A stretch of DNA of 37,536 nt. Origin: Planctomycetota bacterium (GTDB taxonomy: Bacteria > Planctomycetota > SZUA-567). Position numbers and translations under genes: made by a program. Positions within the stretch are counted from its first letter, which is position 1. Every line of letters starts with the position of its first letter. Shown here piece by piece: positions 13,974 through 30,848 of this stretch. Below the pieces are notes generated by a model. That model was not told where the DNA came from and did not search any database. It worked only from the letters and a program-made list of their open reading frames with translations. The DNA lies in assembly GCA_031289115.1 (NCBI GenBank), contig JAITQC010000171.1:1-37536 (forward strand). Reading direction: 5' to 3'.

Positions 13974-16900
13974 ATGAAGCCCAGCCATCTCCTTTTGACC
14001 TTCCTACTCCTCTCCCCCATCCTGCTTTCCGGCGAGGAGACGACCGCCCAGCCCTACGAAAAGATCCGCTACCCCACTTTCGTGGACGGGCGCCTAAATA
14101 CCCTTCTGGAGGCAGACAAGGCCGAGGCCTTCGAGGTGGCCGAGGGTACCCCGCGGGTAAACCTGCAAAACGTGATCATAACCCTTTACGACCAATCCGC
14201 CGCCGCTCTGGCTGCCACTCCCCAAGGTTCACCCCTGCCGGTGAAGATGACTATCACCAGCGACCATGGCTACTTCACTCGCCGCCCTCCCGAACCCGGC
14301 GCTCCCATAGAGGAGATAGCCAACCTTGAGGGTAACGTGGTGCTCCGGCGTTACCGGACTGGCAACTCCCCGCCACCCATCACCAGCGTCAACCGCCGCC
14401 GCCGCCTCCCCCCGGAACTGGAAACCGAGGTGCATTGCCAGCACGCCCAGTGGAACAACACCCTGCGCAAGATGAACGGCGACGGCGAAGTGGAGTTTAT
14501 CCAGGAAGACAGCCGGATAATTGGCACTGGTTTCCTCTACCTCGCCGACGACGAAGTGATGATGGAAAGTACCGGCGCGTCCGGGAACAGCATCCGGGAA
14601 TGGGGGGGGATAATCTTTATCGAGCACAACGCCCGGATGGAGATTGAGCGGGAAAACCTCGGCGGCGCTGGCGCCTACGGAAGGACCGTGATCACCTGCA
14701 AGGACACGGCCAGTTACAAGTTGCGGGAGAGGGAGGTGCAGTTCGAGCGGGAAGTGAAAATCAACCGACCTGGCCTAATGATTGAGTCTGACATCCTCCA
14801 GGTCCTGCTCCGCCGCGAGGACGACCTTGAGACCAAGGACTCTACTGGCCCCGCTCCAATCCCTGGCATGGTGCGTTCCATCATCGCCACCATTGGCAAA
14901 CGCCCGGGGTCAGTGGTCATAACTGGCTTTGAACTTACCAACTCCGGGGAGGGAGCGGTACAGTACGTGGCCCGGGGCGGTCGGGCCGATTTCGACTACG
15001 ACGCCAACAGCATCAACCTAACCGACAGCCGCCTGGAACGGGTGCCGGAGGTGGAATTTGGTAACGATCGCATTTCTGACCGCAACCTCGACTTCACTTT
15101 CGCCTCCACTAGCGAGGATGAAAGTAGCGCCACCCCTCTGGAAGAGCTTAACGCCAGTGGCGGTCAGGGCATGGTCACTATGCGTCCTCGGCCGCGGACA
15201 GTGGGCGGAGCCGCCATCGTCACCGAGGTGTCTTACAAGGGGAGCATGCGCTACCTGCGTCCAGAAAGCATGATCCGTTTCCGCGACTCCATCTTCCTCC
15301 AGCATGGCGACCTGCGTATACGTTCGGAATTCCTGGACATACGCCTGCAGGACGGCCTGACCTCGGGTTCGGCCCAGGTGCGTAACATCACGGCTGAGAC
15401 TGATGTGGAAATCCGCACTGGCAACCGCGAGGCTCAGTCGCACCGGGCTGAATATGAGTTTGACTCCGCCACTGGCCTAGACACCCTCCGGCTTTTCGGC
15501 CTCCCTAGCCGCACCCCTCCCCACCCCTGGATCCGTGACGACGAGGGGAACCAAATCACCGCTCCCACCATTGTGATGCACCGCCTCCAGGGCGGTGGCA
15601 ATCAAAAAGACAAACACCTCCTTACCGCCGCCGATGGCACCATTGTTTGCGATTTCATCACCAGTCCTGACAACCTTTCCGACCGGGGCAAAGTGATTTC
15701 GGTGAAATGCGAACGGGCGATGGAATACAACGAAGCCAAGCGGATGGCCTGGTTTGAGGAACAAGTGATGGCCACCTCCGATGCTCCGGAGGACAATTAC
15801 GTCCTGACCAGCGACCGCCTGGAAATATACCTGGTTGAGAAACCCGATCCCAACGATCCTAGCCGAGTCAGCATCCGCCCCCGCCGCATTGACGCCAACG
15901 GCAACGCCAGGCTTATGCAGGACACCCGCGTCTGTGAGGCTAACCAGATCATCCGCGATTTTCCCAGCGAGCAGCTTAATGAGGGCGACATCTACCTGGA
16001 GGGGAGTCCCGCCCGTAACGGCCGCCCGCCAGAGATGGCGATATACCGCGAGCAGGACGGAGACAACCTGGGGTCAATGTTTACCGCCCCCCGGATCAAA
16101 GCGGCGGCTATCGGCAACCTGATCCAGGCCAACGGTCCGGGCGAACTATCCATTCCTGACGAAATACCCGGTTTCCGTTCGGAAATCGATTTCGAGGGAG
16201 CGGCCCGCTACGAGTCCTACCACGACGGTTTAGTAAGCGAGGCCAAGTTCCGTACCGGCGTGGTGCTGCGTCAACCCTCGAAAAATCTGGTAATGAATTC
16301 CGAGGAGCTAGACGCCCGCTTTCTCCAGAAAGACACTTCCGCCACCACCGCTGGCACGGTGACCATTCCCCTGGAGCGTATCGGTAACATTCGCCGGGCC
16401 GAGGCAAGGGTCGGAGTCAAAATCGAACACGGACTTCCCCGCCAGGGACGCCGCATCGCCACCGGTGACCGCGGGGTGGTAGAGTTTACCGAAAGCGGCA
16501 ACGTCATAACTCTGGCGGTAGACCGCCGTCTGGGCGAACGCCGCTGGGTCATGGCCCGCGACCATGACGGAATGACCCTGTGGGCCCCGGAAATCGAGGT
16601 CCGGCAGGAGCAGGGAGTGACCCGCGCCGCCGGGCCGGGCGAACTACGGGTCCCCGGGGACAGCTCCTCGGAGGGGATGAACCGCATTCCTACCCGCGTC
16701 GCTTACGGCGAAAAAGGAACGCTTATTTACAACGAACTGGCTCTTAACATCCGCGCCACCGACAATGTGCGCATCCTCCAGCCGTCCCCTAACGGACGCT
16801 GGGAGACCCCAAGCCTGGACGGGCGTTGCGACCGCCTGGAAATCATCCTACTTGAACCTCCCGAACCGGGCATGGGTGGTACAGGGGACGCCCTGTCGCG

Positions 16901-17252
16901 CGTGCTACGAATGGACGCGACTGGTTCAGTGCTACTACGAGTCTACGCCGACCCGGTAGCGGGTCTACCCGAGACTGACTGGATGAACCGGCCGGGCACC
17001 ACCTTTTTCACCCGTGGCGACCAGGCGGTTTACGACGTGCCGGAGGGACGCATAACCATGTCCGCCCTCACCGGCCGGCAACCCCAACTTCTGCTTAACG
17101 TGGTAGAGGACGGTTTGTCACCCCGCCGGCAGCGCATGCGGGCTGACCGTTTCGTCCTCAACACCAATTCCATTCCCCGTCGCTGGTATTTCGAGGGGCA
17201 GCTGGAAAGTTCCACCCTACGCCCTGGAGAACCCTTCGGATTTATTGATTAA
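13974..17252 (+). CDS. Large LptC/LptA (OstA)-like periplasmic protein
   Basis: The 1092-residue exported protein starts with a signal peptide (hydrophobic residues about 4-20). The first 200 residues look LptC-like: NLQNVIITLYD, then ITSDHGYFTR, then LEGNVVLRRY. The rest is a long series of OstA/LptA-type beta-strands with repeated phrases such as GTGFLYLADDEVMMESTG, INRPGLMIESDILQVLL and ATGDRGVVEFTESGNVITL, which describe adding and removing lipid-binding strands. LptC and LptA carry lipopolysaccharide across the periplasm and are usually about 190 and 180 residues; here they seem joined and extended several fold. The ATG at 13974 has GAGG 5 bases upstream. It follows a kdsC remnant, consistent with an LPS-export origin. 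Family assignment is by motif feel and context; no LptB ATPase is adjacent. Confidence 0.65.
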   Translation: MKPSHLLLTFLLLSPILLSGEETTAQPYEKIRYPTFVDGRLNTLLEADKAEAFEVAEGTPRVNLQNVIITLYDQSAAALAATPQGSPLPVKMTITSDHGYFTRRPPEPGAPIEEIANLEGNVVLRRYRTGNSPPPITSVNRRRRLPPELETEVHCQHAQWNNTLRKMNGDGEVEFIQEDSRIIGTGFLYLADDEVMMESTGASGNSIREWGGIIFIEHNARMEIERENLGGAGAYGRTVITCKDTASYKLREREVQFEREVKINRPGLMIESDILQVLLRREDDLETKDSTGPAPIPGMVRSIIATIGKRPGSVVITGFELTNSGEGAVQYVARGGRADFDYDANSINLTDSRLERVPEVEFGNDRISDRNLDFTFASTSEDESSATPLEELNASGGQGMVTMRPRPRTVGGAAIVTEVSYKGSMRYLRPESMIRFRDSIFLQHGDLRIRSEFLDIRLQDGLTSGSAQVRNITAETDVEIRTGNREAQSHRAEYEFDSATGLDTLRLFGLPSRTPPHPWIRDDEGNQITAPTIVMHRLQGGGNQKDKHLLTAADGTIVCDFITSPDNLSDRGKVISVKCERAMEYNEAKRMAWFEEQVMATSDAPEDNYVLTSDRLEIYLVEKPDPNDPSRVSIRPRRIDANGNARLMQDTRVCEANQIIRDFPSEQLNEGDIYLEGSPARNGRPPEMAIYREQDGDNLGSMFTAPRIKAAAIGNLIQANGPGELSIPDEIPGFRSEIDFEGAARYESYHDGLVSEAKFRTGVVLRQPSKNLVMNSEELDARFLQKDTSATTAGTVTIPLERIGNIRRAEARVGVKIEHGLPRQGRRIATGDRGVVEFTESGNVITLAVDRRLGERRWVMARDHDGMTLWAPEIEVRQEQGVTRAAGPGELRVPGDSSSEGMNRIPTRVAYGEKGTLIYNELALNIRATDNVRILQPSPNGRWETPSLDGRCDRLEIILLEPPEPGMGGTGDALSRVLRMDATGSVLLRVYADPVAGLPETDWMNRPGTTFFTRGDQAVYDVPEGRITMSALTGRQPQLLLNVVEDGLSPRRQRMRADRFVLNTNSIPRRWYFEGQLESSTLRPGEPFGFID

Positions 17253-19967: not shown

Positions 19968-19997
19968 TTGAGCCCGGGGTTGTTCTGGGCTTATAAT
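19968..19997 (+). promoter_or_regulatory. Promoter of the glycogen synthase gene
   Basis: TTGAGC (19968-19973) and a perfect TATAAT (19992-19997) are 18 bases apart, with transcription starting near 20004 and AGGAGG about 20 bases further. It lies in the divergent gap between mutM and glgA. Confidence 0.75.
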
Positions 19998-20041
19998 GAA
20001 CAGGCTACCCATTTGGTTTAAAAAGGAGGCGAGAACCACCG

Positions 20042-22288
20042 ATGGCGTCAAAAAAAGAACACCAGCGGAAATCCAAGGGGGCCCAAAAAGAAAAACCGCG
20101 AAACAAGCCCTCCCCGATACAACCGATATTTGAACCGGAAATTAATTCTCTTAGCATCGTGGAGCTTGCTTCCGCATCCTCCCCTACGGAGACGGAAGGC
20201 GAAGCGGCTTCCATTCCGGCGGAAAGTTCCACCCCGCCCGCTCCCCAGGCACCCGACGAAACTCCGGTGCCACCGGTGGAGGATTCCCCCGACCCAGCCG
20301 ACGACGCGGCGCCGGTTGACAACCCGACTTCCATTCCGGCGGAAGATTCCACCCCGCCCACTCCTCAGGCACCCGACGAAACTCCGGTGCCACCGGTGGA
20401 GGATTTCCCCGACCCAGCCGACGACGCGGCGCCGGATGACAACCCGCCTTCCATTCCAGCGGAAGATTCCACCCCGCCCGCTCCCCAGGCACCCGACGAA
20501 ACCCCGGTGACGCCGCTGGTGGCGACTGTCTCCGACCCAGCCGAACCGCCCTTCCACCCGGAGGAGACGGAAATACCCGCCTCCCCCTACCAGGAACCGC
20601 CACCCTCCCCAAAAAATCCCGACCCCAGTCCAGAAGGCGCGGGTGAACTGGAGCAGGCAACTTCCTATTGGGAAAAAACCGCCCCTTCCCGACCTGGGAA
20701 ACCGGAGTTGGCAATAACCCCGCCTCCCCCCCCCAGCGCCCCGGTGGAGTGCCAAGAGCCGGCGCCGACGGTTCAGGAAAATCAGGGTGAGTATGCCTTG
20801 CCAAAGGAGAAGCGGTTGTACATTGTGATGATCACCCCGGAAGTGGCGCCCTGCGCCAAAGTTGGGGGTTTGGGGGACGTAGTACAGGGTCTAGGCCGGG
20901 AACTGGAAAAACGCGGCCACAAAGTGGAAATCATCGCCCCCATGTACTCCTGCATGCGTTACGAAACCATAGAGGACCTTCACGAGGTATACGGGGAACT
21001 CTGGTGCCCTCACTACAACCAGTGGCGGTCGGAAAAAGTGTTCCAGGGACGGGTGGGTGGTGGTCTCACAGCCAACTTTATCACCGGTGGCGACTATACC
21101 CAGCGCCCCGCCATCTATGGCTACAACGACGATCTCCAGCGCTTCTCGTATTTCTGCCGCCAGGCCATGGAATTCATGTTCAAGACCAATCGCCGGCCTG
21201 ACATCATCCACTGCCACGACTGGACCACCGGCCTGGTGCCGGCCATCCTCTGGGACATCTACCAGCCGCTCGGCTGGAACAACTCCCGGGTCGTCTACAC
21301 CATCCACAACAACGAGTGCCAAGGTCTCTGCGGCTTCCCGGACAAGCTTCTTGGTCTAGTCGGCTTGAACCACGCCCAATGCCACCGCCCAGACCGCATG
21401 CAGGACGACAAGAACCGCAGCTGCATTAACCTGATGAAAGCGGGGATAATCTATTCCAACTTCACCACGACCGTTAGTCCCAGCTTCGCCAGTGAACTTA
21501 AAACCGTCGCCGGTGGACGCGGCCTAGAGCAAAGCATCAACAAAAACGCCGCCCGGATCGGCGGCATCCTCAACGGCATCGACTACGAAACCTGGAATCC
21601 CCAAACCGACAGCAAGCTGGCGGCCGTCTATTCACATGGCGAGAACTTCTTCGAGAAGTACAAAAACAAGACCGCTCTACGCGAATGGCTCTACCTCTGG
21701 GACGCCTGGAAGCCGATTGTATCGGTGGTCACCCGCCTCACCCACCAGAAGGGGATTGAGCTAATCAAGCGGGCCATCTATTCGACCCTGGAAGAAAAAT
21801 CCCAGTTTGTCCTTCTCGGCAGCGCCCCTGACCCCAAGATCAACAACGAGTTCATGCGCCTGCAGAACGAGTTCAAGGACAACCGCGATGTCAATCTCTA
21901 TATTGGCTACCACGAGGACCTCTCCCGCCTGATTTATGCCGGTAGCGACATTTTCCTCGTCCCCAGCCTGTTTGAACCCTGCGGCCTTACCCAGATGATC
22001 GCCCTGCGTTACGGCACCGTACCGGTGGTGCGGGAAACTGGCGGCCTGAAAGACACCGTTTTCGACCTTGACAATTCAGCCATGGGTCTGGGCGGGGCGA
22101 ACGGCTTCTCCTTCCGCGACCCCACCAACGCCAGCCTGGACTACGGCCTTAAACGGGCCATACGGCTCTGGTTTGACCAACCCGACATATTCAATCAACT
22201 AGCCCGTAACGGCATGCAATGCGACTACTCCTGGCGGCATCCGGCCGTCCATTATGAGAACATCTATAACTATATCCGGGCCGAGTGA
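20042..22288 (+). CDS. glgA: Glycogen synthase with long proline-rich N-terminal extension
   Basis: The 748-residue protein joins a 258-residue low-complexity N-terminus to a normal-length (about 490 residues) GT5 glycogen synthase. The catalytic part starts at about residue 260 (YIVMITPEVAP), with the ADP-glucose motif KVGGL near 273, HCHDWTTGLVP, and the C-terminal block EPCGLTQMIALRYGTVPVVRETGGLKDT. It extends alpha-1,4-glucan chains from ADP-glucose in the cytoplasm. The extension begins Lys-rich (residues 2-25), then is Pro, Asp, Glu and Ala rich, and holds a 40-residue tandem repeat. It is likely disordered. AGGAGG lies about 12 bases before the ATG. No other glycogen gene is adjacent; the RluA-type gene follows after 3 bases, so the two are coupled. 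Confidence 0.93.
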   Translation: MASKKEHQRKSKGAQKEKPRNKPSPIQPIFEPEINSLSIVELASASSPTETEGEAASIPAESSTPPAPQAPDETPVPPVEDSPDPADDAAPVDNPTSIPAEDSTPPTPQAPDETPVPPVEDFPDPADDAAPDDNPPSIPAEDSTPPAPQAPDETPVTPLVATVSDPAEPPFHPEETEIPASPYQEPPPSPKNPDPSPEGAGELEQATSYWEKTAPSRPGKPELAITPPPPPSAPVECQEPAPTVQENQGEYALPKEKRLYIVMITPEVAPCAKVGGLGDVVQGLGRELEKRGHKVEIIAPMYSCMRYETIEDLHEVYGELWCPHYNQWRSEKVFQGRVGGGLTANFITGGDYTQRPAIYGYNDDLQRFSYFCRQAMEFMFKTNRRPDIIHCHDWTTGLVPAILWDIYQPLGWNNSRVVYTIHNNECQGLCGFPDKLLGLVGLNHAQCHRPDRMQDDKNRSCINLMKAGIIYSNFTTTVSPSFASELKTVAGGRGLEQSINKNAARIGGILNGIDYETWNPQTDSKLAAVYSHGENFFEKYKNKTALREWLYLWDAWKPIVSVVTRLTHQKGIELIKRAIYSTLEEKSQFVLLGSAPDPKINNEFMRLQNEFKDNRDVNLYIGYHEDLSRLIYAGSDIFLVPSLFEPCGLTQMIALRYGTVPVVRETGGLKDTVFDLDNSAMGLGGANGFSFRDPTNASLDYGLKRAIRLWFDQPDIFNQLARNGMQCDYSWRHPAVHYENIYNYIRAE
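20210..20510 (+). repeat. 120-base in-frame tandem repeat inside glgA (about 2.5 copies)
   Basis: The unit begins TCCATTCCGGCGG and recurs at 20210, 20330 and 20450, the third copy being cut short near 20510. It encodes a 40-residue block, S-I-P-A-E-(S/D)-S-T-P-P followed by DETPVPPVED and DPADDAAP. The copies differ at few positions even at silent sites, which points to recent duplication or ongoing homogenisation. Confidence 0.93.
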
Positions 22289-22291
22289 GCC

Positions 22292-23176
22292 ATGCCGGTT
22301 TTCACCGTCAAAGAGCCAACCCACCTTATCGACTTCCTGAAGGCGTCCCTCCCGGACTGGGGTGCCGGAACCCTGAAGTCCCGCCTGAAGAGTGGGTTGG
22401 TCCAGGTGGGAGGCATGGCGATACGTTCCGGCGCCACCCGTCTGGTTCCCGGCGACCTGGTAGAGGTCCTTCCCCGTCCCCCGGAGGCGGGAGGTTTTTT
22501 CCCCACCCACCTTGGCCCGCCCCCCTTGCCGCTTCTCCACGCCGATCCCGACCTTCTGGCGGTAGACAAACCGCCCGGCCTCCTTTCCGTGGCCTCGGCC
22601 AGGGAAAAGGTGCTGACCGCCATCCGCCTGATGCGGGAGTGGCTAGGTGAACTGGCGCCGGAGGAAGCGGAAAACCTCCACGCCGCCCACCGCCTTGACC
22701 GGGACGCCTCCGGCGTCCTTCTCCTTGCCCGCTCACTGGAGGTTAAACGTGAACTCGCCAGCGCCTGGCACACCTACAGCAAAATCTACCTTGCCCTGGT
22801 GGACGGCCGACCCCGGCAGGAAGAAGGTGAAATAAACTTGCCGCTGTGGGAGGACAAGGGACTTTTCGTGCGGGTGGCGCGTCCGGAAGAGGGTTGGGCC
22901 GCCACTACGCGTTACCGTCTCCTGGCTAGCCGGGGTGGACGCTCCCTTCTGGAGGTGGAGCTGGTGACTGGCCGCAAACACCAAATCCGCGTCCATCTAG
23001 CCCAGCTTGGCTGCCCCATCGTTGGCGACCGGCGCTACGGTTTTTCCCGAGGCACCCGTCTGGCTCTCCACGCCAAAAGCCTCCGGCTCACCCATCCCCG
23101 TTCCGGACGGGAAACCTATATCGAGTCCCCTCCCCCTCCCTTCTTCTCCCGCCACTGGCAACCCCGCCGTCCCTGA
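22292..23176 (+). CDS. RluA-family 23S rRNA/tRNA pseudouridine synthase
   Basis: The 294-residue protein isomerises uridine to pseudouridine in RNA. Residues 10-60 form an S4-like RNA-binding domain (FLKASLP ... LKSGLVQVGGMAIRSGATRLVPGDLVEV). The catalytic motif is HRLDRDASGVLLLA with D136 as nucleophile, and the later KIYLALVDG and GRKHQIRVHLAQLGCPIVGDRRYG blocks are typical of the RluA group. It begins 3 bases after glgA stops and is probably translated by coupling. Which RNA position it modifies (RluC/RluD-like or other) cannot be decided. Confidence 0.92.
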   Translation: MPVFTVKEPTHLIDFLKASLPDWGAGTLKSRLKSGLVQVGGMAIRSGATRLVPGDLVEVLPRPPEAGGFFPTHLGPPPLPLLHADPDLLAVDKPPGLLSVASAREKVLTAIRLMREWLGELAPEEAENLHAAHRLDRDASGVLLLARSLEVKRELASAWHTYSKIYLALVDGRPRQEEGEINLPLWEDKGLFVRVARPEEGWAATTRYRLLASRGGRSLLEVELVTGRKHQIRVHLAQLGCPIVGDRRYGFSRGTRLALHAKSLRLTHPRSGRETYIESPPPPFFSRHWQPRRP

Positions 23177-23273: not shown

Positions 23274-24041
23274 CTAGTCCGCGATAATAACGTCAATGCC
23301 CCGCGATTCGAAAAGCTCCCGGTACGGGCGGCTTATCCCGGAATCGGTTATCAGGTGATGCACCAATTCAATGCTACCCAGGTTAGCAAAGGCGACGCAA
23401 CCCATCTTGGTGGAGTCAGCCACCAGGAAAACTTCCTTGGCCGCCGTTATCATCGCCCGCTTCATCGGGATGTCAGCCAGTCCCGGGTAGGAGAGGATGC
23501 CGTCTTCGGAAATACCCACCACCGCCAGGAACAACTTGCCTAGAGCGATGCTTTTGTCGAAAAAAGCCGCCGCCTTCTCGCCGGTGACCGAAAGGGTGGG
23601 TTGTTTAAACTCGCCGCCGGTCAGCATCACCTGGGCGTTGAAACAAGAACCCAGGATCAGGGCGATATTGAGGGCCGGGGTTACCACTTTCAGGTCGTTC
23701 ACGCCCTCAAGGTGACGGGCGATTTCGGTAATGGTGGTGCCAGCGTCAAGAATAACCGAGTCGCCGTTACAGATGTATTCCGCCGCCTTTATCCCCAGTA
23801 GCTTTTTCTTGTCCATGTTCTGGCTACGCTGCAGGGAAAGAGTGCGCACTTGGTCGGGTATGGACTTGAGAAACGCCCCGCCGTGCCGGCGCACCACGTG
23901 GCCATCCAACTCCAGACGGTCCAAATCCTGGCGGATAGTGGGTTCGGTCACGGAAAAAAGCGTCTTCAGGTAAGACACTTTCGCCGACCCCTCCTCCTGA
24001 ATCAACTCAAGAATCTTGCGGCGTCTTTGTTCAGCTAACAT
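23274..24041 (-). CDS. DeoR/GlpR-family transcriptional regulator
   Basis: The 255-residue protein has an N-terminal DeoR helix-turn-helix (residues about 5-57; RRRKILELI ... SVTEPTIRQDLDRLELDGHVVRRHGGA) and a C-terminal sugar-phosphate-sensing domain of the ISOCOT fold with DAGTT at 99-103 and the GADK-like region reduced to GISEDG. These proteins usually repress a sugar operon until a phosphorylated intermediate binds. Being the last gene of the ABC transporter/DhaKL operon, 27 bases after dhaL, it probably controls that operon, perhaps sensing the phosphorylated ketose made by DhaKL. The site it binds is not obvious in the upstream region. Confidence 0.92.
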   Translation of the reverse strand: MLAEQRRRKILELIQEEGSAKVSYLKTLFSVTEPTIRQDLDRLELDGHVVRRHGGAFLKSIPDQVRTLSLQRSQNMDKKKLLGIKAAEYICNGDSVILDAGTTITEIARHLEGVNDLKVVTPALNIALILGSCFNAQVMLTGGEFKQPTLSVTGEKAAAFFDKSIALGKLFLAVVGISEDGILSYPGLADIPMKRAMITAAKEVFLVADSTKMGCVAFANLGSIELVHHLITDSGISRPYRELFESRGIDVIIAD

Positions 24042-24068
24042 ACGGGCGCTTTCACAACAGGTGGGAGG

Positions 24069-24713
24069 CTACTGCAAAAGCAGGCGGATGCCATCAACCA
24101 GGCACTTGAGGATAAGCCAGCAGGAGGTGGCGCCGGCGTCCAGAGTGCCGATGGAGCGCTCCCCTAACCGGCTGGCACGGCCGATACGGGCCTGGAGGTT
24201 CTTGGTGGACTCCCAACCCGCCTTGGCGGCTGCCTCCATGGCGTCCAGGGACGCAGCGAAACCGGCCCCTCCCGCACGGGCCGCCTCGAAAGACTCGCTA
24301 GCCGGGATCAAGGTGTCCATCAAGGTTTTGTCGCCCTTTTTGGCCGACCCCAGGCTCTCCACCCCGGCTTGGGCCGCCTGGAGCATCTTGCCGAACAAGA
24401 CGGCATCCACCTGATCCTGGTCCTTGATGACCTTCGACATCTCGATGAAAAAAGTGCCGTAGATTGGGCCCATTGAGCCCCCGATCTCGGTCAGAAGCAC
24501 CCGCCCCAGCGCTTTCAGGGCTGTCCCAAAATCAAGGTCCGCTATGTTGTTCTGCTCGGCGAAAAGGGTGAATCCCTTGTTCATATTAATGCCATGGTCG
24601 CCATCGCCAATAGCGCCGTCTATTTCACTTAGGTAAACCTTGTTGTCTTGGATGGTCTTGACCAGGTTGGTCGCCAGGACCGCCGCGTCTTTTTTACTGA
24701 ATGATTCCGCCAT
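24069..24713 (-). CDS. dhaL: Dihydroxyacetone-kinase nucleotide-binding subunit DhaL
   Basis: The 214-residue subunit binds the nucleotide cofactor of two-part dihydroxyacetone-type kinases. The Mg-nucleotide loop IDGAIGDGDHG holds the three conserved aspartates D32, D37 and D39; GGSMGPIYGTFF and the C-terminal RASRLGERSIGTLDAGATS block are family landmarks. Length is normal. AAGGAG lies 8 bases before the ATG at 24713. It follows dhaK after a 93-base gap with a strong hairpin. No DhaM phosphotransferase partner is in the operon, so DhaL either exchanges ATP directly, as in the ATP-dependent kinases, or uses a DhaM encoded elsewhere. Confidence 0.94.
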   Translation of the reverse strand: MAESFSKKDAAVLATNLVKTIQDNKVYLSEIDGAIGDGDHGINMNKGFTLFAEQNNIADLDFGTALKALGRVLLTEIGGSMGPIYGTFFIEMSKVIKDQDQVDAVLFGKMLQAAQAGVESLGSAKKGDKTLMDTLIPASESFEAARAGGAGFAASLDAMEAAAKAGWESTKNLQARIGRASRLGERSIGTLDAGATSCWLILKCLVDGIRLLLQ

Positions 24714-24759
24714 GGGGAGAACTCCTTAATCAATCGGGGGGACGGGAACAAAACAGCCA

Positions 24760-24789
24760 GCGGTGGGGAGTGCCGCCCTCCCCCACCGC
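24760..24789 (-). other. Intercistronic hairpin between dhaK and dhaL
   Basis: A perfect 9-base stem, GCGGTGGGG (24760-24768) / CCCCACCGC (24781-24789), lies about 20 bases past the dhaK stop. On the transcript it is followed by TGGCTGTTTTG, so it could be a weak attenuator or a processing/protection element. Confidence 0.6.
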
Positions 24790-24806
24790 CGATCCACTGA
24801 GCGAAG

Positions 24807-25802
24807 TTAGAACTGGGTGAGGCCCATGCAGTCGCAGGGACTGTCAATCAACTGCTTTAGTTCATCGTCAAGTTTCATCACCGTGAGAGTCGCGCCCATC
24901 ATTTCCAGGGAAGTGAAATAGTTTCCGACATAGGGACGGTGGATTTTTATCCCCTTGTCGGCAATGAGACCGGCGATATGGTCGTAAAGGATGTAGAGTT
25001 CCATCACCGGAGTGGCGCCTAGACCGGAAACCAGAACCACCACGGAATCCCCGCTGGCAAAGGGCAGGTCGGGAAGAACGACGTTAACCATCATTTCCGC
25101 CACTTCGTTGGCGCTTTTAAGGTCGGTGACTTTTATACCCGGCTCGCCGTGGTGGCCGATACCCAGTTCCATCTTGCCAGGTTCAATGGCAAAGTTGGGT
25201 TTGCCAACCTCCGGGATAGTGCAAGGGGTGAGACCCACCCCGATAGAACGGGTGTTGTTAATCGCCTTCTGGGCGACGGCGATGACTTGCTCAAGACTGC
25301 CGCCTTGGTTCGCCTTGGCCCCGCCCGCCTTCCACATGAAAATTTCCCCCGCCACTCCCCGGCGTTTTGCCTCATCGCCCTTGGCAGCTGAGGGGACATC
25401 GTCGTTGGCAACCACGGTCTGGACCTTGATACCGTCCTCCTCCGCCATATCCCGCGCCATTTTTACGTTCATGTTGTCGCCGGCGTAGTTGCCGTAAAGA
25501 CAGGCCACCCCGCGGCCACCATCCGCCGCCTTGAAGGCGTCGTAGAAGGATTTGGCGGTGGGCGAGGAGAAGATCTCGCCAATCGCCACCGCGTCTACCA
25601 TGTTTTTCCCCACGTACCCGACAAAGGCGGGCTTGTGTCCGCTGCCGCCACCAGTCACCACCCCGACCCGGTCCTTGACCGGGAAGTTGGATTTAACCAC
25701 TCGCGGATTGCCGGTAGCCTGGACGATGTGGGCGTGGGATTTCAAAAACCCCTTCACCATCTCGTCCACCACCTTGGAAGGATCGTTGATAAACCTCTGC
25801 AT
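24807..25802 (-). CDS. dhaK: Dihydroxyacetone-kinase substrate-binding subunit DhaK
   Basis: The 331-residue subunit holds dihydroxyacetone or a related ketose in a hemiaminal with an active-site His. That residue is H218 in ELGIGHHGEPG, aligning with E. coli DhaK H218. The GGGSGHKPAFVGYVG loop (51-65) and GDNMNVKMA segment are also conserved. With DhaL it makes the phosphorylated ketose (DHAP from dihydroxyacetone; erythrulose-phosphate in tetritol pathways). AGGAG lies 7 bases before the ATG. It follows the GolD-like dehydrogenase after 69 bases, so the dehydrogenase product is the likely kinase substrate. The C-terminal CDCMGLTQF is typical of the family. Whether the substrate is dihydroxyacetone or erythrulose cannot be told. 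Confidence 0.94.
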   Translation of the reverse strand: MQRFINDPSKVVDEMVKGFLKSHAHIVQATGNPRVVKSNFPVKDRVGVVTGGGSGHKPAFVGYVGKNMVDAVAIGEIFSSPTAKSFYDAFKAADGGRGVACLYGNYAGDNMNVKMARDMAEEDGIKVQTVVANDDVPSAAKGDEAKRRGVAGEIFMWKAGGAKANQGGSLEQVIAVAQKAINNTRSIGVGLTPCTIPEVGKPNFAIEPGKMELGIGHHGEPGIKVTDLKSANEVAEMMVNVVLPDLPFASGDSVVVLVSGLGATPVMELYILYDHIAGLIADKGIKIHRPYVGNYFTSLEMMGATLTVMKLDDELKQLIDSPCDCMGLTQF

Positions 25803-25871
25803 TGTCGTTCTCCTAGGTTGAAACAGGATACTCGGCCGCCCCTCCCGGTTACCCGGACCAGGCGGCTAGTC

Positions 25872-26645
25872 CTACTGAATGGAATAACCCCCGTCAATGA
25901 CCAGGTTGGCACCAGTCACCAGATTGGCGGCTTCGCTAGCGAGGTACACCGCCGACGCCGCCACTTCCTCCGGATAGCCGAAGCGCCGGGCCGGAATCTT
26001 TTTCTTCATCGCCTCTCCGACCTCTCCGGCCCAGGCTTTCTTGCCTAGCTCAGTAAGAATAACCGTGGGGGAAATGGCGTTGACCTGGATATTAAACTCG
26101 GCCCATTCGCAGGCGAGAATCTTGGTGAGCATGATGATCGCCGCCTTGGAAGAGTTGTAGGCGATGTGCTTGTCCAGGGCTATAACCCCGCCCTGCGAGG
26201 CCATATTGATGATTTTGCCCCGTTTCTGCTGAATCATCTGCCGGCCTACCGCCTGCGCCATGAAGAAGGAGGCGCTAAGGTTTACCGCTATGGTCTTGTT
26301 CCAACCCTCGGCCGACAGATTTTCGGCGTCATCGAGGATAGCGATGCCGGCGCAATTGACCAGAATATCGATCCGGCCGAACTCCTTGACCGCGGCTGTC
26401 ACCATGGGGGGAATCACCCCGTCCTTGGTGATGTCACCCACCTGCACCAAGGCCCGGCGACCGGTCTGCCGGATCTTTTCCGCCACGGTACCGGCGGCGG
26501 CGGCATTCAAGTCCACTGCCACAATGTCCGCTCCCTTGCGGGCAAACATCAGGGATATAGCTTCGCCAATACCGGCACCAGCGCCGGTAACCAAGGCGAT
26601 TTTGTCTTTAAGTGAGAAATTCTCGTCAAAAGGCTGGAAATCCAT
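25872..26645 (-). CDS. GolD-like NAD-dependent polyol dehydrogenase (SDR)
   Basis: The 257-residue short-chain dehydrogenase has the cofactor motif TGAGAGIG (20-27), NCAG (97-100) and catalytic S150, Y163 and K167. Its second half, with LDKHIAYNSSKAA, ISPTVILTELGKKAWAG and RRFGYPEEVAA, closely resembles what I recall of GolD from Listeria, which oxidises small polyols next to dihydroxyacetone-kinase genes. The start at 26645 has GGGAGG 8 bases upstream; the open frame extends further but without a ribosome site or family match. It sits between the transporter genes and dhaK, the place expected for a dehydrogenase turning the imported polyol into the DhaK substrate. The exact polyol is not fixed. 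Confidence 0.88.
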   Translation of the reverse strand: MDFQPFDENFSLKDKIALVTGAGAGIGEAISLMFARKGADIVAVDLNAAAAGTVAEKIRQTGRRALVQVGDITKDGVIPPMVTAAVKEFGRIDILVNCAGIAILDDAENLSAEGWNKTIAVNLSASFFMAQAVGRQMIQQKRGKIINMASQGGVIALDKHIAYNSSKAAIIMLTKILACEWAEFNIQVNAISPTVILTELGKKAWAGEVGEAMKKKIPARRFGYPEEVAASAVYLASEAANLVTGANLVIDGGYSIQ

Positions 26646-26765
26646 GTTCGCTTCCTCCCATAAACAGGACTCCGCCATGGAGTCCCGGGTTATCCACAAG
26701 CAGAAAAACCGTGAAGCCCCCCGGACCAAAGTACACAGAGTCGACTGGCGGGAGTGGCAACAACA

Positions 26766-26811
26766 GGGTGGCACCAAAATGCCACCCGGGCGGGCATACC
26801 CGCCCGGGTGG
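26766..26811 (-). promoter_or_regulatory. Two overlapping, mutually exclusive hairpins after the binding-protein gene
   Basis: A 13-base perfect stem, CCACCCGGGCGGG (26782-26794) / CCCGCCCGGGTGG (26799-26811), with a 4-base loop lies 12 bases past the binding-protein stop. A second perfect stem, GGGTGGCA (26766-26773) / TGCCACCC (26780-26787), shares six bases of arm with it, so only one can form. On the transcript the first stem is followed by CATTTTGG. It probably protects the 3' end of the transporter part of the message or partly terminates, favouring the binding protein over downstream enzymes. Confidence 0.7.
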
Positions 26812-26822
26812 AGAGGAAAAAA

Positions 26823-27836
26823 CTAGCGGCTGGTAAGATCCTGGCGTTTGGCCCACTGCTCGTCGGCGTTAGCCTTGGTGATGGGGGTCCATGGCACATC
26901 GTAGACCTTGAGTTTTCCGCCTTCCCACTTCATGTCGGCGTAGTCTTTCCAGCAGGCGGACAAAGGCTGGTAGTTGGGGATTATCTGACCCAGGGCGATA
27001 TCCAGCGCGCCTTGGGCTTGGGACACGGCGTCCTGAAGGATGGAAAGATCCATCTCGCCGTTTTTCACTGCCGTGATGGCGTCGGAGACGCCGTCGATGC
27101 CGGCGATGGCGAATTTGCTCAGGTCAAGCCCGGCCGCTTTGATCGCCTGGACCGCGCCCAGAGCCATTTCGTCGTTCTGGCCGATGACACCCTGGATCTG
27201 CCCGGGGTGGGCGGTGAGCCAGTTTTCCATCAGGGCCAGAGCTTCGGCGCGGGACCAGTTGGCGGTTTTCTGTTCCAGAACCTTGATGTTGGGGTATTCA
27301 GCCAGGGCTTTTTTGTTGCCTTCGAGGCGCTCAATTTGGGCGGACTGGCCGATTGGACCCTCGATAATCACCACATTGCCCTTGCCACCCATCTTGTCGA
27401 TAACCGCCTTGGCTTCCAGATAGCCGGAAACCACGTCGTTGGAGCCAATATAGGCGGTGAGCAGGTCAGAGTTGACACGGGTGTTGGAACCAATTACCGG
27501 GATGCCAGCGGCGCTGGCGGTGGCGACGGCGGCGGCACCAGCTTCAATGTCGATGGGAACGAAAAGAATGGCATCGTACTTCTGGGCCGACATGGTCTCG
27601 AACTGGCTCTGCTGGACCGAAGCGTCGTAGCGGCCATCGAAAACCGTCACCTGCACCAAACCCTGGGTAACCGCCGGATGACGCTCAAGAGCGGTAGCCC
27701 AAAGCTTCATGTACTCGCCGCTAAGACCGTAGGCGGCGCCACCAATACGGTAGACCTTTTCGCCCGCTTGGCTAAGACAACCCATAACAGCCAGACAGGC
27801 TGCCATAACCATCAGACTCCTGATCAACTTCGACAT
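26823..27836 (-). CDS. Sugar ABC transporter substrate-binding lipoprotein (RbsB-like)
   Basis: The 337-residue protein is a type-I periplasmic binding protein of the ribose/galactose (PBP1/LacI-like) class. Residues 1-20 form a lipoprotein signal ending LAVMGC, so it is tethered by C20. Class marks are YDAILFVPIDIEAGAAAVATA, IPVIGSNTRV, YIGSNDVVSGYLEA and GQNDEMALGAVQAIKAAG. The start at 27836 has AAGGAG 6 bases upstream; the frame is open further back but without a signal. It is the third gene of the transporter, after the ATPase and permease genes, an order seen in ribose-type systems. The ligand is unknown; the enzyme genes suggest a small polyol or ketose rather than ribose. Confidence 0.93.
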   Translation of the reverse strand: MSKLIRSLMVMAACLAVMGCLSQAGEKVYRIGGAAYGLSGEYMKLWATALERHPAVTQGLVQVTVFDGRYDASVQQSQFETMSAQKYDAILFVPIDIEAGAAAVATASAAGIPVIGSNTRVNSDLLTAYIGSNDVVSGYLEAKAVIDKMGGKGNVVIIEGPIGQSAQIERLEGNKKALAEYPNIKVLEQKTANWSRAEALALMENWLTAHPGQIQGVIGQNDEMALGAVQAIKAAGLDLSKFAIAGIDGVSDAITAVKNGEMDLSILQDAVSQAQGALDIALGQIIPNYQPLSACWKDYADMKWEGGKLKVYDVPWTPITKANADEQWAKRQDLTSR

Positions 27837-27939
27837 ACTTTGCTCCTTTGACACATACACAGGAAAACACCAGCGGCAATGGTCCCGGGCCCTACCCGGA
27901 ACCCACCCCCGGTGAAAAAAACCTTTTGTTCCTCCACTC

Positions 27940-28923
27940 TTAGCGGTCACTGTCGGCCTGGAAGTAGTCAAGCATTACCGCCCCGACAATGATCAACCCC
28001 TTCACCACCTGCTGGTAGTAGGAGGACACACTTAGTAGGTCCAGACCGTTGTTGATAACGCCGATAATGAGAACGCCCATGAGGGTGCCCAGAAGCGCCC
28101 CCTTGCCCCCAGTCATGCTGGTGCCGCCGATAACCACCGCCGCGATGGCGTCAAGTTCATAAGCCTGGCCTGCCTGGGGGAGTCCGGCACTGGTCCGGGC
28201 GGTTAGGAGAATGCCACCAAGGGCGCAGAGAAAACCACTTATGACATAGACCATGAAAATAATGAAGCTGACGTTGATACCGGATATCCGGGCCGACCTG
28301 GCGTTGCCACCCACCGCATAGACATAGCGGCCGAATTTCATGCCATAGAGAATAACCCAGGCCAGGATGAAGGCGGCCAGGAAGATCACCACCGGCACTG
28401 GCAGAAACCAGATGTAACCCTGGCCAATCACGAGGAAATCTTTGTTCAGGTCAGTAACCGGCATGCCGTTGGTGTAGATAAAGGTGAGACCCCGGGCAAT
28501 CGAAAGCATGCCTAGCGTCATGATGAATGGGGTTACCTTGACCTTGGAAATTACCAGGCCGTTAACCGCCCCCAGCGCCACCCCAGCGCTTAGACCTATG
28601 AGGATGGCTAGCAAAGGATGCAGGTTGGGGACATGCTTGTAGGCGTTAGAGACAAAACTCGCCGTCACCACCCCGCCAAAAGCCAGCATCGATCCGACCG
28701 AAAGGTCAATACCGCCGGTTAGGATGACAAAAGTCATGCCAATCGAAAGGAGGCCGTTTATCGACACCTGCCGGAGGACGTTGATGAGGTTGCTCTGGAT
28801 CAGGAAATAGTCACTGGCGAAGGAAAGAATGATACAGATAACCAGAAGGGCGATAATGATCCGGAGTTCCCAAACGAAGGACCAGAAACGGGAGGCGCCT
28901 TTAGAGTCGGTACTTGTTGCCAT
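27940..28923 (-). CDS. Sugar ABC transporter permease (RbsC-like)
   Basis: The 327-residue inner-membrane protein is a branched/ribose-type permease with about nine to ten helices. Typical blocks are INGLLSIGMTFVILTGGIDLSVGS near residues 55-77, GLSAGVALGAVNGLVISK, GGNARSARISGI (the coupling loop) and the C-terminal LDAIAAVVIGGTSMTGGKG followed by LLGTLMGVLIIGVINNGL. It pairs with the RbsA-like ATPase upstream and the lipoprotein binding protein downstream. AAAGGA lies about 7 bases before the ATG. A single permease gene implies a homodimer, as in RbsC. Confidence 0.95.
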   Translation of the reverse strand: MATSTDSKGASRFWSFVWELRIIIALLVICIILSFASDYFLIQSNLINVLRQVSINGLLSIGMTFVILTGGIDLSVGSMLAFGGVVTASFVSNAYKHVPNLHPLLAILIGLSAGVALGAVNGLVISKVKVTPFIMTLGMLSIARGLTFIYTNGMPVTDLNKDFLVIGQGYIWFLPVPVVIFLAAFILAWVILYGMKFGRYVYAVGGNARSARISGINVSFIIFMVYVISGFLCALGGILLTARTSAGLPQAGQAYELDAIAAVVIGGTSMTGGKGALLGTLMGVLIIGVINNGLDLLSVSSYYQQVVKGLIIVGAVMLDYFQADSDR

Positions 28924-29025
28924 GGGAAATTCCTTTCAAAACGTGGGGCAACGGGGACGGGCGGAAAGAACCCCAGCCGGGCGATGGTCCAGTCGGCGGT
29001 TCCGGTAGCGAGATATCCTGGCACC

Positions 29026-30531
29026 CTAGGTAGCCATTTGCATGAGGATTTCTTCGCTAGCGTCCTTGCGCGCTATCTCACCCGAGAGGGCGTGATTCTT
29101 GAACACCAGTATGCGATCCGACATTCCCATGATTTCCGGTAGTTCGGATGACACCAGAATCACCCCATTTCCCTGACGGGTGAAATCCGATATGAACTTG
29201 TAAATCTCCCGCTTCGCTCCCACATCGATACCGCGAGTGGGTTCGTCCATCAATAGGACGCTGGGGGTAGTAAGGAGCCACCGGCCAAGCACCACCTTCT
29301 GCTGGTTGCCACCGGAAAGGTTGCGGACCAGTTGCCGTTCCGAAGGTGTCTTTATACGGAAAAAATCAATGGCGCGTTGAACATCCTGGCTTTCCTTCTT
29401 CCGGTTGATCAACACCCCCCGGTAGGACTTGCGCATAGAGGCAAGGGATGAATTGTCCTTGACCGAAAGGATGAGGGCGAGACCTGACCCCTTGCGGTCC
29501 TCGGTGACAAAAGCCATGCCATTCTGGATAGCGTCGTAAGGCGAGCGTATCCGCAGGGTGCGGTTGTTAATTAAAATTTCTCCGCCGTCCGGACGCTCCA
29601 CTCCAAAGACGCTTTCCAGAAATTCGCTACGCCCTGCCCCCACCAAGCCATAGATGCCAAGGATCTCCCCCCGGTGAAGGTCGAGGGAGATTGGCTGGTG
29701 GCGGTTTTTCCGGTGTAGGTCGCGGACACTTAGGAGGGGGGTGGAGGTGGGGGTGTTTTCCTTAACATACTGGCCTTCGAGTTTCCGGCTGATCATCAAG
29801 CTCACCAGGGAGTCCTGGTCAAGCTCGCTCGCCGGTTTGGTACAGATGTACTCGCCATCCCGGAGAATGGTTATTTCATCCGCGATGCGGAAAATTTCCT
29901 TCATGCGGTGGGAGATATAGAAAATTCCGGTGCCCTGGCGCTTGAGTTCCGCGATGATGCCGAAAAGGATATCAGTCTCTTTTTCACCCAGGGCGGAGGT
30001 GGGCTCGTCCATGATAAGGATTTCTGAATGGTAGGACAGAGCCTTGGCGATTTCCACCATCTGGAGTTCCGCCACCGACAGGGTCTTCATCTTCCGGTTG
30101 GGGTCGAGTTGAACCTTGATCCGGGCAAGAATTTCCCCAGCCTTGCGGTTAAGTTCGCCATAGTTGACAAACAGGCCGGCGTACAGCGGTTCCCGCCCCA
30201 GGAAAATGTTCTCGGCGATGGTCATGTCGTGGATCGGAGTCAGTTCCTGCTCAATAATGGCAATACCGGCTGCCAGCGCCTGGCGCGGCGACTGGAATAA
30301 AACCGGCTGTCCCTTGAGGTACATGTTTCCGGCATCGGCCTGGTAGTCTCCCATGAGAATTTTCATGAGGGTTGACTTGCCCGCCCCGTTCTCGCCACAG
30401 ATAGCGTGTACTGTGCCCCGGCGCAGGGTAATTGACACCCCCTTCAAGGCATGCACGCCATGGAAGTGCTTTTCCGCCTGTTCCATGCTTAAAAGCACCT
30501 CGGGGTCATCCTTCTTTTCCTTGGTTACCAT
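29026..30531 (-). CDS. Sugar ABC transporter ATPase with two nucleotide-binding domains (RbsA-like)
   Basis: The 501-residue protein, the usual RbsA/MglA length, has two ABC domains. The first is complete: Walker A GENGAGKST (46-54), a signature reading LSVAELQMVEIAKAL, and Walker B ILIMDEPTSALG. The second has the degenerate Walker A GLVGAGRSE but a good signature LSGGNQQKVVLGRWL and VLLMDEPTRGID, which is normal for this family. It powers uptake through the RbsC-like permease. The start at 30531 has GGGAG 8 bases upstream; the frame is open 222 bases further but nothing there looks conserved. It is the first gene of the operon. Confidence 0.95.
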   Translation of the reverse strand: MVTKEKKDDPEVLLSMEQAEKHFHGVHALKGVSITLRRGTVHAICGENGAGKSTLMKILMGDYQADAGNMYLKGQPVLFQSPRQALAAGIAIIEQELTPIHDMTIAENIFLGREPLYAGLFVNYGELNRKAGEILARIKVQLDPNRKMKTLSVAELQMVEIAKALSYHSEILIMDEPTSALGEKETDILFGIIAELKRQGTGIFYISHRMKEIFRIADEITILRDGEYICTKPASELDQDSLVSLMISRKLEGQYVKENTPTSTPLLSVRDLHRKNRHQPISLDLHRGEILGIYGLVGAGRSEFLESVFGVERPDGGEILINNRTLRIRSPYDAIQNGMAFVTEDRKGSGLALILSVKDNSSLASMRKSYRGVLINRKKESQDVQRAIDFFRIKTPSERQLVRNLSGGNQQKVVLGRWLLTTPSVLLMDEPTRGIDVGAKREIYKFISDFTRQGNGVILVSSELPEIMGMSDRILVFKNHALSGEIARKDASEEILMQMAT

Positions 30532-30848
30532 AGGGTTGTCTCCCAGGAAGCGGGTTGGAGAATTGGCGGCGGCGGAACAAGGACCGGCGCTTGACTCTTC
30601 AGCGGTAAAATACAACGGAAACCCGGCTGACCAGAGTTCCATGACTTTGGCTAGGTGAAGAACGCAGGGAGAAAAGCAGGGGCTGGGGGATAAAGAATCG
30701 GCGTAGGCGCAGTATCGGTTGTGAGAATAGCGGCGAAAGAGTGATATTGTCAAGATCAGGGGGTTAGCACGACCAAGCCGGGCAAAGACGACTGAATAAT
30801 AGTATAGACGGTAGAAAAAGCAAGATTTTTTTTCTTTTATTTTCTTTT
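30532..30848 (-). promoter_or_regulatory. Upstream region and probable promoter of the polyol operon
   Basis: On the minus strand a TATACT -10 box lies at 30801-30806, with no good -35 box but with a long A-rich tract upstream (30826-30878 reads almost all T and C on the plus strand), like an UP element. Transcription would start near 30794, leaving a leader of about 260 bases before the ATPase ATG. That leader has no gene and no hairpin that I could place with confidence. The DeoR-type operator should be here, but I could not pick it by eye. Confidence 0.45.

Follow-up and report, generated by a model that had tools for sequence, protein, structure and literature searches.

The glycogen synthase gene (glgA) in the 37,536-nucleotide stretch of planctomycete DNA analyzed here (the window) encodes an enzyme whose catalytic core is preceded by a long N-terminal arm. 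Our best explanation, which we hold tentatively, is that the arm is a docking peptide on a variable spacer, that the gene kept its old start and yields both a long and a short form, and that a share of the GlgA is positioned or clustered in this way. Sequence comparisons demonstrated selection on the tip of the arm, a single origin, turnover of the spacer, the type of the core, and conservation of a GGAG motif and start codon where the core begins.

The open frame of the long form (positions 20042 to 22288, plus strand) spans 748 amino acids. GlgA models begin at residue 259 (NF001905, residues 259 to 747, above its cutoff; PF08323, residues 261 to 500), and the enzyme is preceded by 258 residues without a match to a known domain. 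The preliminary description of this DNA had reported a Lys-rich and then Pro/Asp/Glu-rich extension, and composition counts and model boundaries bear this out: residues 1 to 25 contain 9 K/R versus 2 D/E, and residues 26 to 258 contain 60 Pro, 47 D/E, and 7 K/R. There is almost no Trp or Tyr and very few aromatics overall, and by composition the window extension is classed as disordered. A structure model built from a two-sequence alignment (the window and L031) had a mean pLDDT of 37 and supported nothing firm. Upstream, we found a promoter-like site, TTGAGC-18-TATAAT (19968 to 19997, plus strand), a consensus match only, at 10 of 12 positions (shuffles: mean 0.1), and a Shine-Dalgarno-like AGGAGG (20024 to 20029, plus strand), 12 bases before the ATG at 20042 and with 7 of 8 matches to AAGGAGGT. 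We take ATG 20042 to be the real start because the peptide MASKKEHxR is kept there in six genomes with only synonymous codon changes.

The core (residues 259 to 748; 20816 to 22285, plus strand) has a GT5/GT1 assignment and scores of 645 bits against NF001905 (cutoff, 560) and 492 bits against TIGR02095 (cutoff, 328), placing it within GlgA/GT5. The K-x-G-G-L loop (AKVGGLGD) and the E-P-C-G-L-T-Q motif (FEPCGLTQ) are both present, aligned to 6gne, 2qzs, and 1rzu. Its best solved relative is Arabidopsis SS4 (6gne; 451 bits versus 226 bits for Escherichia coli GlgA), and in a tree that did not include SS3 and in which plant SS4 sat on a long branch, the core clustered with plant SS4 and separately from E. 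coli-type GlgA (100/100; internal branch, 0.97). Based on these comparisons, the core is assigned to the plant SS4 type, a point that the preliminary description had missed. The GT5/GT1 GlgA proteins of E. coli (2qzs) and Agrobacterium (1rzu) are expected to catalyze the same reaction but score half as high and are armless. In the phylum, most genomes with a GlgA carry this other type, and the patchy distribution of the SS4 type suggests horizontal transfer. Plant SSIII to SSV are thought to derive from a donor bacterium, which one view takes to be chlamydial (PMC4653816). An SS4-type GlgA without an arm is also encoded in two genomes of f58, a distant family of planctomycetes (genomes G131 and G097; loci L094 and L097); it groups with the order studied here, on the 100/100 branch that separates them from the usual planctomycete GlgA.

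We searched fifteen other genomes of the family for GlgA. The enzyme starts at the core in genera g2, g4, g5, g6, and g8 and in the sister family f2. In a maximum-likelihood tree, eight extended cores formed one clade (100/100) whose sister comprised the five unextended genera. Because the extended cores are monophyletic and the sister genera unextended, these comparisons demonstrate a single gain of the arm, in the common ancestor of three genera of planctomycetes, and we found no loss within the extended clade among the genes compared. The extension is thus present in related GlgA proteins, and comparison with five other genomes supports the ATG at 20042. Across the phylum, 13 of 294 genomes have this GlgA type above the NF001905 cutoff, with long frames only in g1 (the genus of the window), g3, and g7; a wide distribution of the extension in the phylum was rejected, as it was not seen beyond these genera among those 13 genomes. 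Further relatives that we inspected have long frames without a supporting start. Our literature search for N-terminal extensions or disorder in bacterial GlgA returned nothing relevant.

A conserved second start at the core was new and unexpected, and the preliminary description did not contain it. In the window, a GGAG (within AAAGGAG) is followed by AAGCGG and a TTG, the codon of residue 259 (20805 to 20818, plus strand), from which a short form of 490 amino acids would begin. All nine extended genes, representing approximately six or seven independent lineages, have the form xxG-GAG-NNN-NNN followed by ATG (seven genes) or TTG (the window, at 20816, and G006). Ahead of the site Glu, the residue varies (K, R, M, G, or L), but its codon ends in G in 9/9 genes; the Glu codon itself is GAG in 9/9. 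The cores of the same genes contain 194 Glu codons, of which only 15 take the xxG-GAG form, and of their 13 invariant Glu columns just one is entirely GAG. Among 250 core columns with an invariant residue, 36 also keep the third base. A conserved in-frame start codon with a Shine-Dalgarno-like site occurs here in 9/9 genes, and GGAG lies 4 to 8 bases upstream of 0/183 other in-frame ATG, TTG, and GTG codons in the cores. In eight of the nine genes, the region around the site is predicted to be less folded than the average over the core; in G012 (JAISYL010000174.1, Planctomycetota bacterium isolate Nc350_bin29), strong folding is predicted there (-22 kcal/mol). Some of the GGAG conservation may reflect inheritance plus a favored Glu. 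Given that both G's are kept in 9/9 genes while the neighboring residue changes and third bases are free elsewhere, the simplest account is that selection on the nucleotides maintains an internal ribosome-binding site, and the gene probably makes both the 748- and the 490-residue forms. A start near residue 255 had been named earlier as an observation that would count against the extension; a conserved start-like site does lie at residue 259, but it is probably additional to ATG 20042 rather than a replacement for it.

Comparable arrangements are known from E. coli, in which internal starts generate isoforms of IF2 (infB; PMC13245402) and long and short forms of ClpB, which work best as mixed complexes (PMC11268196). 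As in glgA, an in-frame internal start with its own Shine-Dalgarno sequence gives a form without the N-terminal region; the proteins are unrelated, and the use of two starts is demonstrated there and predicted here.

The same site could instead be a relic. If only ATG 20042 were used, a single armed form would dock, and the GGAG and start codon at the core would be leftovers of the ancestral start; we regard this as possible, although unlikely. Unextended relatives use the homologous site as their real start (CAGGAG-AACGC-ATG in G005 and GGGAGG-AATGC-ATG in G001), and the internal codon of the window is TTG, which, like that of G006, is a weaker start than ATG. The persistence of both G's next to a changing residue argues against a relic, as does the nature of the replacements: both times that the Met was replaced, it was by TTG, a rare Leu codon in these cores (3 of 44 and 2 of 46 Leu codons).

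Selection on the arm shows in its first residues. The basic start peptide of the window, MASKKEHQRK (20042 to 20071, plus strand), corresponds to a consensus MASKKEHxR[KR] in an alignment of six genomes from three related genera: the window (g1), G006 and G010 (g7), and G008, G011, and G012 (g3). Three further g3 assemblies (G002, G013, and G015) begin inside the spacer, with their 5' ends missing, and were left out of the tip counts. Seven of residues 2 to 10 are invariant in 6/6 genomes with an assembled 5' end, versus 0 of 50 columns just after the tip; where the core begins, 33 of 45 columns are invariant. In comparison, 100,000 composition-preserving shuffles gave at most one invariant residue in nine. 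All seven invariant codons vary among the genomes, at the third base only and synonymously, and purifying selection is accordingly read as acting on the peptide, including His7 and Arg9, and not on the nucleotides. The DNA pattern of the tip (residues 2, 3, and 8 free) occurs once per genome in the six, always at glgA, and was not found in the unextended genera tested. We also considered a targeting tag common to other glycogen enzymes, which was ruled out, as the start pattern is exclusive to glgA.

Early Lys codons often favor expression. The tip might thus serve expression only, with a Lys-rich start aiding initiation or N-terminal stability and a neutral spacer being tolerated behind it, and the unconstrained look of the spacer sequence would agree with this. 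Together with the relic start, this is the main rival to the docking explanation, but we consider such a role improbable: what is conserved is peptide and not nucleotide sequence, down to His7 and Arg9, no extended gene has lost the arm, and the segment next to the core is also partly shared.

Between the tip and the core, constraint is faint. A weak second shared motif, EINSLSIV (20138 to 20161, plus strand), aligns with ELNSLDLS, VLNSLDIL, and EVNSLDIL in relatives; its NSL[DS] center is common to g1 and g3 and absent from g7. The Pro/Asp/Glu-rich spacer that follows (20162 to 20653, plus strand) is hypervariable, has no convincing counterpart in other genera, and contains the repeats. The juxta-core segment (residues 205 to 258, ...SYWEK...SAPVEC...YALPKEK; 20654 to 20815, plus strand) is weakly alignable with relatives: its pattern (PPLEMDNPHWQR...SLPVTM...YAVP) is strong within g3, recognizable in g7 (PPALEVDPAYFEG...APVTF), and faint in the window. 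Arms among the relatives range from 193 residues (G006) to 435 residues (G008), and the type of spacer varies by genus, with Pro/Asp/Glu and 40-residue repeats in the window, Ala/Pro/acidic sequence in g7, and a 261-residue Glu/Arg/Ala charged stretch without Pro or Gly in G008.

Nearly identical 40-residue repeats had been described in the window, and they are present. Tandem Repeats Finder (TRF) detected a 120-base array at 20208 to 20544 (plus strand; 2.8 copies, 90% matches, score of 542), the sole array in the window. Copies 1 (20208 to 20327) and 2 (20328 to 20447) agree at 113 of 120 bases, and a partial third copy (20448 to ∼20509) matches over its first ∼62 bases only. Copies 1 and 2 differ at seven bases, six of them in amino acid-changing codons; the copies are drifting, with no selection visible on the repeat sequence. 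Separate arrays occur in relatives (111 bases in G008 and 90 bases in G013), and G008 and G015, 93 to 96% identical where they match, are set apart by the gain or loss of ∼21 residues within charged repeats. Such repeat-sized length changes between close relatives agree in spirit with the earlier suggestion that copy number may vary between strains. We read the spacer as changing, as a class, by repeat gain and loss, with the window array as one more case and the latest turnover; the comparisons indicate that the spacer is under almost no selection. The emphasis that had been placed on the repeats and Pro-richness as the functional point is not supported, given that the type of spacer differs per genus and the MASKKEHxR tip is fixed.

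A tethering role had also been proposed, with the arm as the glycogen-binding part that would hold or gather the enzyme on the granule and the Pro-rich repeats as binding or spacing units. The enzyme acts on glycogen, and plant SSIII arms contain carbohydrate-binding modules (PMC4919380). Pfam searches of the window and G008 arms, however, returned no family, carbohydrate-binding families included, at E values of ≤1. The near absence of Trp and Tyr, the absence of the window repeats from other genera, and the lack of visible selection on them weigh further against glycogen binding, which we find doubtful. Self-association by charge blocks seems very unlikely: a basic head would pair with the acidic spacers of neighbors to form GlgA condensates without a separate partner. 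Heads do carry net charges of +6 to +9 in all six genomes, and in the window a +7 head precedes a spacer with 47 D/E versus 7 K/R, but g3 spacers are nearly charge balanced (the whole arm of G008 has 85 K/R and 110 D/E), and the invariant Ala, Ser, and His would be needless. The window genome is a MAG of 221 contigs and 83% completeness, but an error of annotation or assembly, such that the short form alone exists or the repeats were misassembled, is extremely improbable given the peptide-level selection at ATG 20042, the independent arrays in relatives, and a longest exact repeat of 40 bases in the region, which makes an artefactual array unlikely because ordinary k-mer assembly can resolve it.

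Under the docking explanation, the arm would be a translated, noncatalytic extension gained on an SS4-type glycogen synthase, ordered as the basic tip MASKKEHxR[KR], a long, fast-evolving spacer, and the weakly conserved juxta-core segment. Tandem repetition would lengthen or shorten the spacer and so provide reach, and the start of the armless enzyme, kept in the gene with its ribosome-binding site, would yield long armed and short core forms, both predicted to be used. The tip may dock to a protein or to an anionic surface such as a membrane or nucleic acid; armed subunits would then place or cluster GlgA where glycogen is begun or built, and the ratio of long to short forms would set the anchored share of the pool. 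A bolder version, to which we assign a low probability, is that an SS4-like targeting arm evolved independently in a controlled fraction of subunits, with a receptor for MASKKEHxR fixing where granules start, amounting to a bacterial granule initiation system.

The closest parallels are plant SSIII and SSIV, GT5 enzymes with a same-type core and a long, variable N-terminal arm. Their arms mediate protein-protein contacts (PMC4919380), and the nonenzymatic N terminus of SS4 is required for lenticular granules (PMC10801857). The arms are not homologous, however: the nearest bacterial relatives of the core are armless, and the homologous arm, coiled coils, and/or CBM25 that define the plant enzymes were not detected here, with no Pfam hit and no carbohydrate-binding module. 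The plant arm is a coiled coil and that of the window Pro/acidic, with G008 having a long, charged, helix-like stretch. FtsZ ends in a conserved peptide carried by a disordered linker whose length varies (PMC12607630) and, as a works-like comparison only, shares the layout of folded enzyme, variable spacer, and short conserved docking peptide; it is unrelated, and its peptide is C-terminal, whereas that of glgA is N-terminal and its docking putative. CsoSCA of alpha-carboxysomes, also unrelated, is a metabolic enzyme recruited via a disordered N-terminal peptide (PMC10614612), which is poorly conserved, unlike the strongly conserved glgA tip.

An armed enzyme of this type would represent convergence with the initiation of starch granules in plants, and it offers a case of N-terminal arm gain in which the old start was kept and the armless enzyme therefore not lost. 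To our knowledge, the control of where and how many glycogen particles bacteria form is poorly understood. The tip as bait (a synthetic MASKKEHKRRQK peptide) and the two predicted forms are handles for finding a positioning factor.

The same genome encodes GlgC (contig C9, above the cutoff) and glycogen phosphorylase (contig C171), and a branching-enzyme-like GH13 on C26 gave a weak match only. At this last locus (L071; G000:C26:141-704), the classical GlgB model matched weakly (E value of ∼1e-13), and the frames of relatives are ∼735 to 1014 amino acids long; the branching enzyme of the family is possibly a different GH13 branching-enzyme type.

Around glgA, an RluA-type pseudouridine synthase gene (22289 to 23176, plus strand) begins 4 bases past the stop codon of glgA. 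Its g3 and g7 counterparts lie 1 to 6 kb downstream, and in these genera genes for a type II/IV secretion ATPase (T2SSE) and T2SSF follow glgA. A conserved neighbor was considered as a clue to the partner and rejected: RluA is downstream in most extended genomes, T2SSE and T2SSF intervene in g3 and g7, with neither between glgA and RluA in the window, and no consistent partner emerged. Upstream in the window (13974 to 17252, plus strand) is a gene for a 1092-residue protein with a marginal LptA/LptD N-terminal match only, followed by genes for a TPR protein and a DUF6599 protein. On the minus strand (23274 to 30753), genes for a DeoR regulator, dihydroxyacetone kinase (DhaL/DhaK), a short-chain dehydrogenase-like open reading frame, and a sugar ABC transporter (binding protein, permease, and ATPase) look like a sugar uptake operon.
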